Assembly (NCBI RefSeq): GCF_014200495.1
Contig: NZ_JACHBY010000013.1
Location: 1-64,000 of the forward strand
Reading direction: 5' to 3'
DNA: 64,000 bases
Source: Mucilaginibacter geliditolerans
GTDB taxonomy: Bacteria > Bacteroidota > Bacteroidia > Sphingobacteriales > Sphingobacteriaceae
Shown: piece after piece, positions 4,904 through 20,128 of the stretch
Position numbering within the stretch: the stretch's first letter is position 1
How the letters are laid out: the number at the start of each line of letters is the position of its first letter
Notes under the pieces: model-generated
Told to the model about the DNA's origin: nothing
Databases searched by the model: none
The model's input: the letters and a program-made list of their open reading frames with translations, nothing else
Made by a program: the position numbers and the translations under genes

Positions 4904-4977
4904 TCATTCTGAGCGATAGCGAAGAATCTTTCAGGCGTACGGCAAGCGATAAGATTCTTCGCTAGCGCTCAAGATGA
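4904..4977. repeat. Imperfect inverted repeat, 27-base arms
   Basis: The left arm (4904-4930) reads TCATTCTGAGCGATAGCGAA onward. The right arm (4951-4977) is its reverse complement with about three mismatches, around a 20-base loop. It lies directly behind the glycosyltransferase gene and could serve as its terminator. It resembles the short palindromic repeats scattered through many Sphingobacteriaceae genomes (general knowledge, not searched). Confidence 0.7.
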
Positions 4978-14868: not shown

Positions 14869-14936
14869 TGTAGAGACGCAATACTTTGCGTCTCCCACCT
14901 ATATGTTTAAAAGACGCAAAGTATTGCGTCTCTACA
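14869..14936. repeat. Perfect 25-bp inverted repeat
   Basis: Arms 14869-14893 and 14912-14936 are exact complements (TGTAGAGACGCAATACTTTG onward) around an 18-base loop. It sits in the 505-base spacer between the PadR operon and proS. This GTAGAGACGCAATA-type palindrome is a dispersed repeat that I recall from several Bacteroidota and cyanobacteria. Not searched. Confidence 0.8.
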
Positions 14937-15299: not shown

Positions 15300-16772
15300 A
15301 TGAGCAAAGGGGTTATAAGCAAGGAAGAAGATTACTCGCAGTGGTACAATGATTTAGTGATAAAAGCTGATATGGCGGAGTATTCGCCGGTTAGGGGTTG
15401 CATGATCATTAAGCCGTATGGCTATTCCATCTGGGAAAAAATGCAGGCTGTGCTTGACAAAATGTTTAAGGAAACCGGGCATAGCAATGCTTATTTTCCG
15501 CTGCTTATACCTAAGTCGTTCTTCTCGAAGGAGGCCAGCCACGTTGAGGGCTTCGCTAAGGAATGTGCCGTGGTAACCCATTATCGTCTTAAAAATGATG
15601 GTAACGGCAATATTATTGTTGATGAAGATGCCAAGCTGGAGGAAGAACTGATCATCCGCCCAACATCTGAAACTATCATCTGGAACACTTACCGTGGCTG
15701 GATACAATCTTACCGTGACCTGCCTATTTTGGTTAACCAATGGGCTAACGTAATGCGCTGGGAAATGCGTACACGCCTGTTTTTGCGTACCAGTGAGTTT
15801 TTATGGCAGGAGGGCCACACTGCTCATGCAACATCCGACGAAGCTATTGCTGAAACCGAGCAAATGCTAGGAGTTTATGCTGATTTTGCCGAAAACTGGA
15901 TGGCATTGCCTGTTGTTAAAGGCCGTAAAACGCCAAATGAGCGCTTTGCAGGTGCTTTAGATACTTATTGTATTGAAGCCTTAATGCAGGATGGAAAAGC
16001 CCTACAGGCCGGTACCTCACACTTTTTAGGGCAGAACTTTGCCAAGGCGTTCGATGTTAAATTCACCAATCGTGAGAATGTTCAGGATTACGTATGGGCT
16101 ACCTCATGGGGCGTTTCAACCCGCTTAATAGGCGCGCTGATCATGGCGCACTCTGATGACGCAGGTTTGGTTTTACCGCCAAAACTGGCACCTATACAAG
16201 TAGTTATTGTGCCGATATACAAGCACGATGAAGAGCTGGAAAACATAACGGCCTTCGTTACCGCATTAACTAAAGAACTTAAAGCGAAAGACATATCAGT
16301 TAAGTTTGATAAACGCGATACCCACCGCCCAGGTGCTAAGTTCGCAGAATACGAACTAAAAGGCGTGCCTTTGCGCGTTGCCATCGGCAGCCGAGATATG
16401 CAGAATGGGACGGTTGAGCTGGCCCGCAGGGATACCAAAACTAAAGAAACGGTTAGTCAGGATGGCTTGGCTTTGCATATCGAGGCTTTACTGGATACGA
16501 TTCAGGAAAATATCTACAAAAAAGCATCCGACTTTAGAGCAGAAAACACTACCGAGGTGGATACCTACGAGGAATTTAAACGCATGCTGGATGAAGAGCC
16601 GGGGTTCCTATCTGCCCATTGGGATGGCACAGCTGAAACTGAGCAAAAGATAAAAGATGAGACTAAAGCAACAATCCGTTGCATACCTTTGGATAATAAA
16701 CTGGAAGAAGGCAAGTGTATTTTAACGGGCAAGCCGTCGAAACAAAGAGTATTGTTCGCAAGAGCATATTAG
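15300..16772 (+). CDS. proS: Prolyl-tRNA synthetase (short, archaeal/eukaryotic-type)
   Basis: A 490-residue class II aminoacyl-tRNA synthetase that charges tRNA-Pro. It lacks the bacterial editing insertion, so it belongs to the shorter ProS type 3 common in Bacteroidota. Landmarks: [19 protein letters not shown] (28-46), motif 2 around [20 protein letters not shown] with HTAHAT, motif 3 around [16 protein letters not shown] and [13 protein letters not shown]. An anticodon-binding domain ([11 protein letters not shown] onward) follows, then a C-terminal zinc-ribbon-like tail ending in tyrosine ([10 protein letters not shown]). Length is normal for the group. Its own promoter lies in the repeat-rich spacer. 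Confidence 0.95.
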
Positions 16773-16776
16773 CCGA

Positions 16777-16911
16777 GCCCCCCAGCCCCCTGAAGGGGGC
16801 GCTTTGAAAAGCATGGTGGGGTTACCGGGGATAAATAAAATTATTAACAAGATGTCGGACTTTAAAGTCAGCATCGCAAATCAAAAATCCCCCTTTAGGG
16901 GGCTAGGGGGC
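16777..16911. repeat. G/C-tract palindromic repeat pair ending one base before the next ATG
   Basis: Arm 16777-16800 (GCCCCCCAGCCCCCTGAAGG onward) and arm 16888-16911 (TCCCCCTTTAGGGGGCTAGG onward) are inverted copies separated by 87 bases. They match the arms of the element inside the DUF2400 gene (18624-18692). The right arm ends at 16911 and the trans-sulfuration gene starts at 16913, so the arm supplies a G-rich stretch where a ribosome-binding site would lie. Confidence 0.75.
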
Positions 16912-16912
16912 T

Positions 16913-18052
16913 ATGAAATTCGCAACTAAAGCTATACATGCAGGGCAGGAGCCCGATCCGTCAACCGGCGCGGTGATGACGCCGATATATCAAACATCAA
17001 CCTACTGGCAAAAATCCCCAGGCGATAACCAGGGATTCGAGTACTCTCGTGGAACAAACCCAACCCGCAAGGCTTTGGAAAATTGCCTGGCTGCTTTAGA
17101 AAACGCCAAATTCGGACTGGCATTCTCCAGTGGAATGGGCGCTACCGACGCGGTGATGAAACTGTTATTGCCGGGTGATGAAGTAATTACCGGCAATGAC
17201 CTTTATGGTGGCTCATACCGCATGTTTACCAAAATATTTACGCCTTACGGTATCAAGTTTCATTTTATTGATCTTTCAGACCCTGAACTGATCAACCAAT
17301 ATGTAAACGAAAATACAAAACTGATCTGGATAGAGACGCCAACCAACCCAACCATGCGTATTGTGGATATAGCGGCGGTGTCAAAAATCGCTAAAGCTAA
17401 AAATGTGAAGTTGGTGGTTGATAATACTTTCGCCTCACCGTACCTGCAAAATCCTATCGACCTGGGTGCTGATATTGTGATGCACTCGGTCACTAAATAC
17501 ATTGGCGGTCACTCTGACGTGGTAATGGGCGCCTTAATGCTGAACGACGAAGAAACCTACAAAAAGCTATGGTTCATCTATAACGCCTGCGGTGCTACAC
17601 CGGGCCCTATGGACAGCTTTTTAGTACTGCGTGGTATAAAAACCCTGCACCTGCGCATGAAAGCACATTGTGAAAACGGTAGGGTAATAGCAGAATTTTT
17701 AAAGACACACCCTAAAGTTGAAAAGATCTACTGGCCGGGCTTTACCGATCATCCAAACCACGACATTGCCAAAAAGCAAATGAAGGATTTCGGCGGTATG
17801 ATCTCCATTGTATTAAAAGACGCAGACCTGCAGGAAACTTTCCGCGTGGCGTCATCATTTAAAGTATTTACCCTTGCCGAGTCATTGGGTGGCGTAGAAT
17901 CATTGATCAACCACCCCGTAAGCATGACCCACGGCTCCATACCAAAAGCCGAGCGTGAGAAAGCCGGTGTGGTAGACAACCTGTTGCGCCTAAGCGTAGG
18001 GGTAGAGGATATTGATGATTTGCTCGAGGATTTAAAGCAAGCGCTTAGTTAG
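16913..18052 (+). CDS. Cystathionine gamma-synthase/lyase family PLP enzyme
   Basis: A 379-residue fold-type I PLP enzyme of the Cys/Met metabolism family, acting in trans-sulfuration between cysteine and homocysteine. Visible features: TPIYQTSTYWQ (23-33), YSRGTNPTRKALE, substrate/phosphate loop FSSGMGATDAV, Asp170 in VVDNTFASPY, and Lys195, which binds PLP, in HSVTKYIGGHSDV. The C-terminal SLGGVESLINHP is typical. Synthase and lyase cannot be told apart by eye. The start is set by the conserved MKFATKAIHAGQEPD opening, directly against a palindromic repeat arm. Confidence 0.9.
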   Translation: MKFATKAIHAGQEPDPSTGAVMTPIYQTSTYWQKSPGDNQGFEYSRGTNPTRKALENCLAALENAKFGLAFSSGMGATDAVMKLLLPGDEVITGNDLYGGSYRMFTKIFTPYGIKFHFIDLSDPELINQYVNENTKLIWIETPTNPTMRIVDIAAVSKIAKAKNVKLVVDNTFASPYLQNPIDLGADIVMHSVTKYIGGHSDVVMGALMLNDEETYKKLWFIYNACGATPGPMDSFLVLRGIKTLHLRMKAHCENGRVIAEFLKTHPKVEKIYWPGFTDHPNHDIAKKQMKDFGGMISIVLKDADLQETFRVASSFKVFTLAESLGGVESLINHPVSMTHGSIPKAEREKAGVVDNLLRLSVGVEDIDDLLEDLKQALS

Positions 18053-18130
18053 GTTAGTATCAAGTAGCTAGTACCAGGTATCAAGTAAATGATTTTAAGT
18101 CTATTTACTTAATACTAAACAAATAACAGA

Positions 18131-18243
18131 GCGTCATTGCGAGGAACGAAGCAATCTCTATGCTATACAGAGCGAATAAACAGTTTTAAACTTGCATAAC
18201 CGCCCTGCCTAAGTAGAGATTGCTTCGTCCCTCGCAATGACGC
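18131..18243. repeat. 113-bp palindromic element, copy 1
   Basis: The 30-base terminal arms GCGTCATTGCGAGG... and their complement (ending TCGCAATGACGC) enclose an internal core with TGCTATACAGAGCGAATAAA and TTGCATAA. Copy 2 lies at 20012-20128 in the same orientation and shares the whole structure, core included. It ends 15 bases before the DUF2400 ATG. MITE-like or REP-like; no transposase seen. Confidence 0.8.
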
Positions 18244-18258
18244 TTGGAGATATTCATA

Positions 18259-19068
18259 ATGATAGAGAATCTCAAGGAGTTTTTAGATTTTAAAGTTGCC
18301 CAATACAACCAACCGGGCTTCATCACGAACGATCCCATCTCTATCCCGCATCTGTTCACTAAAAAGCAGGATATCGAGATCATGGGTTTTTGGGCAGCAA
18401 CCTTAGCCTGGGGGCAGCGCGTTACCATCATCAACAAATGCAAGGAGCTGATCCAGCTGATGGATGGCGCGCCTTATGATTTCATCATTAATCACGAAGA
18501 ATCCGACCTTAAAAAGCTGCTGAATTTTAAGCACCGTACTTTTAATGATATTGATACGCTGTATTTTATTGCATTCTTCAGGTATCATTATGAAAGAAAT
18601 GAATCGCTGGAATCAGCGTTTCAGCCCCCCAGCCCCCTAAAGGGGGAGCATGATGTAAATCATGAAACTCCCCCTTTAGGGGGCTGGGGGGCCGAAGCTG
18701 CCCTCAATCACTTCCGTTCCTATTTCTTTTCCCTGCCCGATTACCCGCATCGTACAAAAAAACATGTATCCTCACCATCGCAAAAATCAACCTGCAAAAG
18801 GCTGAACATGTTCCTGCGCTGGATGGTACGTAAGGATAATTGCGGTGTTGATTTCGGTATCTGGAATCAGTTAAAACCAGCTGATCTCATCATGCCCTGC
18901 GATCTGCATGTCGACCGTGTATCGCGCAAGCTCAACCTCATCACCCGCAAACAAACCGATTGGCAAACCGCCCTCGAACTCACCGAACGCCTCCGCGAAT
19001 TTGACCCAGTTGACCCTGTGAAATATGATTTCGCGCTGTTTGGGTTGGGGATAGAGGAGAAGTTTTGA
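18259..19068 (+). CDS. DUF2400 (TIGR02757) family protein with in-frame repeat insertion
   Basis: A 269-residue protein. The opening LKEFLDFKVAQYNQPGFITN, the block DPISIPHLFTKKQDIEIMGF and the end DPVKYDFALFGLGIEEKF mark the TIGR02757/DUF2400 family, a widespread Bacteroidota protein of unknown function. A loose DNA-glycosylase-like helical fold has been suggested for comparable proteins, but I cannot support that here. Residues about 122-145 (QPPSPLKGEHDVNHETPPLG) are encoded by a perfect 25-bp-armed palindrome of 69 bases, that is 23 codons. Without it the protein would be 246 residues. I chose the ATG at 18259. The TTG at 18244 abuts repeat copy 1. Confidence 0.85.
   Translation: MIENLKEFLDFKVAQYNQPGFITNDPISIPHLFTKKQDIEIMGFWAATLAWGQRVTIINKCKELIQLMDGAPYDFIINHEESDLKKLLNFKHRTFNDIDTLYFIAFFRYHYERNESLESAFQPPSPLKGEHDVNHETPPLGGWGAEAALNHFRSYFFSLPDYPHRTKKHVSSPSQKSTCKRLNMFLRWMVRKDNCGVDFGIWNQLKPADLIMPCDLHVDRVSRKLNLITRKQTDWQTALELTERLREFDPVDPVKYDFALFGLGIEEKF
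18624..18692. repeat. Palindromic repeat inside the DUF2400 coding sequence
   Basis: Perfect 25-base arms at 18624-18648 and 18668-18692 with a 19-base loop, total 69 bases (multiple of three). The arms match the intergenic pair at 16777-16911. The reading frame stays open through it and resumes with ALNHFRSYFFSLP, which belongs to the family. This is a direct observation of a protein-coding repeat insertion. Confidence 0.9.
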
Positions 19069-19142
19069 TGATAACAATGAGTATCAATTACTTAAATATT
19101 TGAGTGATTGATACTCATTGTTATAGCATTTTTAATATTAAT

Positions 19143-20011: not shown

Positions 20012-20128
20012 CGCGTCATTGCGAGGTACGAAGCAATCTCTATGCTATACAGAGCGAATAAATAGGTTGAACTTGCATAATCGTCCTGTCTAAGTAGAGA
20101 TTGCTTCGTACCTTACAGCAATGACGCG
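20012..20128. repeat. Palindromic element, copy 2 (117 bp)
   Basis: Same orientation and layout as copy 1 at 18131-18243. The arms begin CGCGTCATTGCGAGGTACGA, and the core contains TGCTATACAGAGCGAATAAA, TTGCATAA and AAGTAGAGATTGCTTCG. Differences are scattered substitutions plus a few indels, one in the right arm (CTTACAGCAATG). It lies between the DUF5655-like gene and the stop of the nucleoid-protein gene and could end both transcripts. Confidence 0.8.

Follow-up and report, generated by a model that had tools for sequence, protein, structure and literature searches.

Palindromic repeats of several families recur in frame at one loop of a DUF2400 gene in Mucilaginibacter

A DUF2400 gene of Mucilaginibacter geliditolerans contains a 69-base palindrome that is, in all likelihood, an inverted pair of REP-like units (designated family A), now situated in a permissive surface loop and read as protein. 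In homologues from other species, the same loop is occupied by a unit of family A, B, C or D, and the family present changes between close relatives. Several palindromic families apparently settled repeatedly at this one loop while the gene stayed unbroken, and selfish DNA seems to rewrite the protein there.

Results

The palindrome and its host gene

The window (the whole stretch analysed, 64,000 nucleotides) contains a plus-strand ORF at 18259–19068, whose 269-amino-acid product matches Pfam DUF2400 (1.1e-85) and TIGR02757 (3.2e-60); among named proteins, the closest, at 91%, comes from M. mallensis. The palindrome at 18624–18692 has 69 bases, with 25-base arms that are perfectly complementary and a 19-base loop, as the original prediction had described it. 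Its location inside the DUF2400 coding sequence, with frame and stop undisturbed, was likewise borne out by the open frame and the two profile matches. The arms of the inverted repeat around it reach 36 bases once mismatches are allowed. The left arm (18624–18648, plus strand) corresponds to a family A unit on the minus strand (18623–18646) and the right arm (18668–18692, plus strand) to one on the plus strand (18670–18693). The spacer between them (18649–18667) encodes a peptide unlike that of P0121, a metagenome protein 96% identical to the query, which carries family A with a different spacer. In the protein, the variable loop comprises residues 122–147 (QPPSPLKGEHDVNHETPPLGGWGAEA; 18622–18699, plus strand) and is flanked by helices at residues 117–121 and 145–156. 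The palindrome had been expected to add about 23 residues, which is too high. The query spans 30 residues from AF to FR (26 plus ALNH), against 14–16 in the shortest loops of the genus, which puts the net gain at about 15 residues.

The RNA of 18604–18712 folds with −79.5 kcal/mol, compared with a mean of −38.9 kcal/mol for shuffled sequences (z = −10; none of 200 shuffles was as low). An Rfam search gave microRNA-shaped and similar matches, all below the gathering scores, and no RNA family. Directly 3′ of the DUF2400 stop codon, a loop-less 27-base inverted repeat (19071–19124) is possibly a terminator.

The DUF2400 product is predicted to adopt the endonuclease III/MutY/OGG fold and to belong to the HhH-GPD DNA glycosylase superfamily. 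The loop is the sole low-confidence part of the structural model, with pLDDT values below 50 at residues 134–142; the insert sits in this loop and is probably disordered, and the low values may alternatively reflect the few aligned residues there. A sequence search of the PDB returned nothing useful; the lowest E-value (2e-5) was for a designed CTPR protein across 29 residues, with no stretch passing alone. Outside the loop, the query and the homologue L109 differ at 60 synonymous and 5 non-synonymous codons, and the gene is evidently under purifying selection. We infer that the loop is translated, because its frame is open and conserved.

Family A as a dispersed repeat

The family A unit consists of CCCCCTNNAGGGGG followed by approximately NNNGGGGGCT. 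The half-unit core CCCCCTNNAGGGGG has 49 exact copies in the 6.5 Mb genome, whereas its reversed control has none. When the longer unit was searched with up to three mismatches, 63 matches were listed (two places twice, with a one-base shift) and none for the control. These cores are distributed over 38 places, 11 of which hold inverted core pairs with starts 37–103 bases apart. At 33 of the 38 places, a core overlaps or lies within 30 bases of the boundary of an ORF of at least 150 codons, as called mechanically and not from annotation. The original prediction had staked its reading in advance on further copies of the arms; they are dispersed through the genome, and a genome search also found them within other coding regions. 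The idea that the palindrome arose by chance or as an assembly artefact is practically inconceivable and is already refuted by a large number of separate records, both genomic and metagenomic, that contain the palindrome loop; the 49 core copies against none for the reversed control are likewise far beyond chance.

One inverted pair lies near the DUF2400 gene in the window. Its minus-strand unit (16776–16799) starts three bases past the stop codon of the ORF at 15300–16772, and its plus-strand partner (16889–16912) abuts the ATG of the ORF at 16913–18052, so that the pair occupies the gap between the two ORFs. The palindrome arms had been said to match this pair; they are related to it but are not exact copies, the left core there having CTGAAG in place of CTAAAG.

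Across the genus, the core occurs in 63 of 71 Mucilaginibacter genomes with a maximum of 105 copies, and the reversed control matched one place in one genome. The longer unit was found in 18 of 19 Mucilaginibacter genomes versus 16 of 132 genomes of other genera in the same taxonomic family, where it has at most seven copies. Family A is therefore a dispersed, often paired repeat that is common in Mucilaginibacter.

Other inverted repeats are also present in the window. Two inverted family B units (TCATTCTGAGCGATAGCGAAGAATCTT) form a pair at 4904–4977, and two further inverted repeats with other sequences lie at 14869–14936 and 307–395 (TGTAGAGACGCAATACTTTGCGTCT and CCCTCTCTTCCGCAAGCGGCAAAGAGGGC). 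Family C-like inverted pairs flank the DUF2400 gene on both sides (18130–18244 and 20024–20113), the first with GCGTCATTGCGAGG...GAAGCAATCTC and the second with AGGTACGAAGCAATCTCTA only; the same family is found inside the DUF2400 gene of L065.

Loop states among homologues

Of 41 genomes, 40 yielded the DUF2400 gene, as did 290 of 301 genomes of the taxonomic family, and further DUF2400 sequences were taken from 80 loci and 40 stretches fetched by place. In the alignment, there is a single hypervariable loop, from SLE[SD]AF to LNHFR, and the remainder is conserved. Some loops, such as those of L105 and L176, carry no repeat; therefore, an insertion-free site exists, and the alignment check that accompanied the original prediction turned out as expected in that the loop is shorter in homologues that lack the repeat.

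The repeat-bearing loops read as PPSPLKGE...TPPLGGWGA for family A, VILSDSEGS for family B (unit GTCATCCTGAGCGATAGCGAAGGATCT), SASLRGTKQP for family C (unit GCGTCATTGCGAGGAACGAAGCAATCTC) and VMLRHSKH for family D (unit GTCATGCTGAGGCACTCGAAGCATGA), which resembles B. A unit was assigned at a score of at least 10; the maximum among 261 shuffled loops was 10 (99th percentile, 5.4–7 depending on the family), and the labels of L060, L072 and L157, which score exactly 10, may be due to chance. By this threshold, 87 of 111 distinct Mucilaginibacter DUF2400 genes match a unit in the loop (A, 58; B, 26; D, 2; C, 1) and 24 have no recognisable repeat. Because the sample consists mostly of the best-scoring matches to the query plus 20 chosen stretches, these frequencies may lean toward the relatives of the query. 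Six of the 58 family A loops, designated A2, have the right half in another frame; L126 was counted as A because its SPFRGLGG is N-terminal. L165 and L218 were assigned by hand to B instead of D, L211 was parsed by a hand-made rule, and L193 and L200 were excluded because of faulty parsing.

Among the 194 of 198 database proteins parsed by regular expression, 72 were A, 65 B, 1 C and 1 D, with 55 unassigned. The B pattern is present in 43 of 71 genus genomes. Two families in series, A then B, could be read by eye in P0191 and P0184, and a B- or D-like piece lies inside or after A in P0197 and P0198, also read by eye.

The other genera of the taxonomic family were sampled with 20 loci, picked mainly for long matches; 18 were parsed, and none of these scored 10 with units A–D. 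Their loops (L189–L208) have 34–46 residues in 17 cases and 26 in one; thus, a long loop does not require these repeats. L083, from another family of the class, carries a palindrome-like insert at this position, but it was not counted as evidence, its unit being unique in its genome at up to two mismatches. In L125, L126 and L149, family A-like sequence also occurs near the DUF2400 N-terminus (NYSSPFRGLGGFLDAKV, QLPLQGAGGLRGSLDAKV), which is perhaps a second permissive place in the gene.

Turnover and reading frames

Gene trees were built without the loop, and their bootstrap support is not fully settled. When all loop states were placed on the careful tree, 43 changes were required, compared with 52 for shuffled labels, indicating that the labels are somewhat clustered by kinship. 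The well-supported branches alone force at least 16 changes for A, at least 16 for B and at least 5 for A2, each of which may be a gain or a loss. The query carries A, and its two nearest relatives, the sisters L086 and L109 (support 100/98), carry B.

In each of the 33 cases that could be read, the left A unit yields PLKGE, even though a second frame is open to it; the right unit uses all three frames. One frame of the TTTA core contains a stop, and none of 10 TTTA cores is read in that frame, compared with 6 of 14 for the TTCA core, which is free of stops. The constant left frame could stem from a single early insertion or from a joint that is fixed at the conserved proline codon. If family A had entered the genus only once, long ago, and had since decayed or been lost, the diverse loops would be the erosion of one element; the identical left frame is in line with this, as is the resemblance of some repeat-free loops (L077, L127 and L184) to worn repeats. 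Nevertheless, the sequences of B and C do not resemble that of A, the spacers vary, the right unit occupies every frame, the arms of the query are perfect, and A and B are swapped among the closest relatives, all of which make such a history highly improbable.

An exchange of loop alleles between species by short-tract homologous recombination, with few true insertions, is unlikely but deserves more weight. It would account for the six A2 loops, which are scattered on the tree (six changes) and share their length and the flanks DGxY or GGDY. On the other hand, the spacer and length of most A and B loops differ by species, two families in series are easier to explain by insertion, and the five genomes without A cores also have no A in DUF2400. 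The last point comes from a comparison of 41 genomes, in which 5 lack an A core and none of these 5 has A in DUF2400 (Fisher p = 0.016). The link of copy number to loop state is modest: genomes with A in DUF2400 have a median of 28.5 A copies versus 20 (p = 0.039), and the corresponding difference for B, 6 versus 1, is not significant (p = 0.08). As exceptions, G303 has A in the loop with only 2 cores, and no loop repeat can be recognised in six genomes that contain 7–52 cores.

Loop lengths and other coding copies

Repeat-free loops have a median AF-to-FR length of 19 residues (shortest, 14–16), compared with 15 for A2 (6/6), 22 for a single A unit, 35 for an A pair and 36 for B. These lengths indicate that native codons were lost when the repeat arrived or later. 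All six A2 loops have the length of 15 that is found among the shortest repeat-free loops, yet 7–8 of their codons are rewritten. Among the loops compared, we saw no target site duplication of the kind that marks MITEs, and no strain pair with an empty site close enough to read one.

Elsewhere in the genome, family A is internal in the ATPase domain (HATPase_c) of a histidine kinase and in an ABC ATPase past its ABC domain; it is near the N-terminus in ArgC and a TrpG/PabA-type protein and at the C-terminus in ArgG, AroA and uracil-DNA glycosylase. The unit stands in place of a hairpin in the histidine kinase and of a native stretch in the ABC ATPase, with length changes of about +1 and −3 residues, respectively. 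The element is absent from 12 other histidine kinase sequences (11 relatives and 1 paralogue from the same genome), in a comparison of 13 rows read by pattern among the loci fetched, and from 12 relatives of the ABC ATPase. Recurrence at every coding site was therefore rejected, and compared with these two controls, DUF2400 is unusual in its repeated hits. In L019 (2979–3520), a family A cluster at the end of argG, the start of a cupin gene and the start of argC yields in-frame tails and leaders, and the C-terminal tail of the uracil-DNA glycosylase frame in L045 (2195–3031) is a family A pair.

It is possible, though doubtful, that the DUF2400 loop is a true landing pad and that units enter there and at other loops mainly by templated overwriting of native codons, for example by template switching at C-rich microhomology. 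Such overwriting would leave the length nearly constant and allow unrelated families to replace one another at one address. The signs that suggest it are the A2 lengths and the replacements in the histidine kinase and the ABC ATPase.

Search for a mobiliser

Searches matched 7 Y1-transposases in the M. geliditolerans genome and 45 across ten genomes. We covered 33 of the 45 loci (all 7 from this genome and 26 from nine other genomes) and found no exact unit of any of the four families (A–D) within 1.5 kb. A looser scan found no units flanking a Y1 gene; it detected one A unit with two mismatches in L241 (571–594), at a distance of approximately 0.9 kb from the Y1 gene, as well as C-like sequence in L250 (one unit) and L052 (an inverted pair), about as many matches as chance would allow. 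Because a density of about ten A cores per Mb implies about one per 0.1 Mb by chance, no link to a transposase is seen at the loci covered. The Y1-transposase gene of L050 has an identical palindrome with 15-base arms (AACTTACGAAGTTTT) on both sides (1338–1368 and 1932–1962), an arrangement resembling a TIR-flanked transposase.

Discussion

We favour the reading that inverted REP-like pairs entered a permissive loop of the DUF2400 protein. The units may have been moved by a trans-acting enzyme or by template switching, and copies would persist in this loop because any open frame is tolerated there. Where the loop begins and ends, conserved codons for proline (CCN) and glutamate (GAA) are possible microhomologies to the element ends, which would fix the place and phase of the element. 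The repeat is probably mostly neutral in the protein. That it is retained for its use, either as a loop of the protein or as a hairpin in the mRNA that sets the pace of translation, could be argued from the loop repeats in 87 of the 111 sampled genes and from the very stable hairpin, but families, frames, lengths and peptides vary freely and 24 of the genes have no recognisable repeat, so that such a benefit is very unlikely.

The likeness to the palindromic elements (RPEs) of Rickettsia in the original prediction is apt with respect to behaviour. In the available parts of the literature, these elements, studied by Ogata and colleagues, are described as dispersed palindromes located in frame in unrelated protein genes (PMC10969869, PMC3733652). 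Family A palindromes are similarly dispersed, in frame in genes and absent from homologues. They differ from RPE-4 and RPE-6, for which a CGTC tag is described there, in having no such tag, and from the Rickettsia elements as presented there in belonging to a different phylum and in the use of a single site by several families across a genus.

REP sequences offer a second comparison. According to the sections available, REP singles and dimers occur in coding regions of several species, many of them in DNA repair genes, and no transposase flanked by CGTC REPs is reported (Di Nocera 2013, PMC3733652). The same sections describe different REPs at about the same site in recB of two Xanthomonas species, which is a same-site precedent for the DUF2400 loop (PMC3733652). 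Family A units, as listed in the M. geliditolerans genome, lack both a terminal GTAG and a terminal CGTC (or TGTC, CCTC) tetranucleotide. Of the other families, the C unit starts with GCGTC, and B starts with TGTC in many loops. Beyond the intragenic GTAG and CGTC REPs described there, the DUF2400 loop shows recurrence in 87 of the 111 genes sampled, along with families in series and several frames. As in REPINs, to judge from the portion available (PMC3116915), two units are inverted with a variable spacer at 11 of the 38 places in the genome; unlike the REPINs and RAYTs of that portion, no RAYT flanked by the units was found among the 33 Y1 loci. Perfect inverted repeats of up to 284 bp are reported in coding sequences of Nematomorpha mitochondria (PMC6649704), but those are mitochondrial and, in the part of that paper available, are not presented as a REP family.

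We found no prior report of recurrent repeats in the DUF2400 loop in open-licence full texts, the nearest being PMC3733652. Within that literature, as far as its text was available, DUF2400 appeared only in a Bifidobacterium paper, and TIGR02757 gave nothing. What is new is that, across a genus, multiple families have recurrently used one site. The host protein has a repair-type fold, and there are hints that units overwrite codons instead of being inserted. The DUF2400 loop is a natural replicate experiment, in which one protein site in one genus has received at least three distinct families and has changed state tens of times along the gene tree. It makes testable both the spread of REPs without a known transposase and the conversion of selfish DNA to protein sequence.
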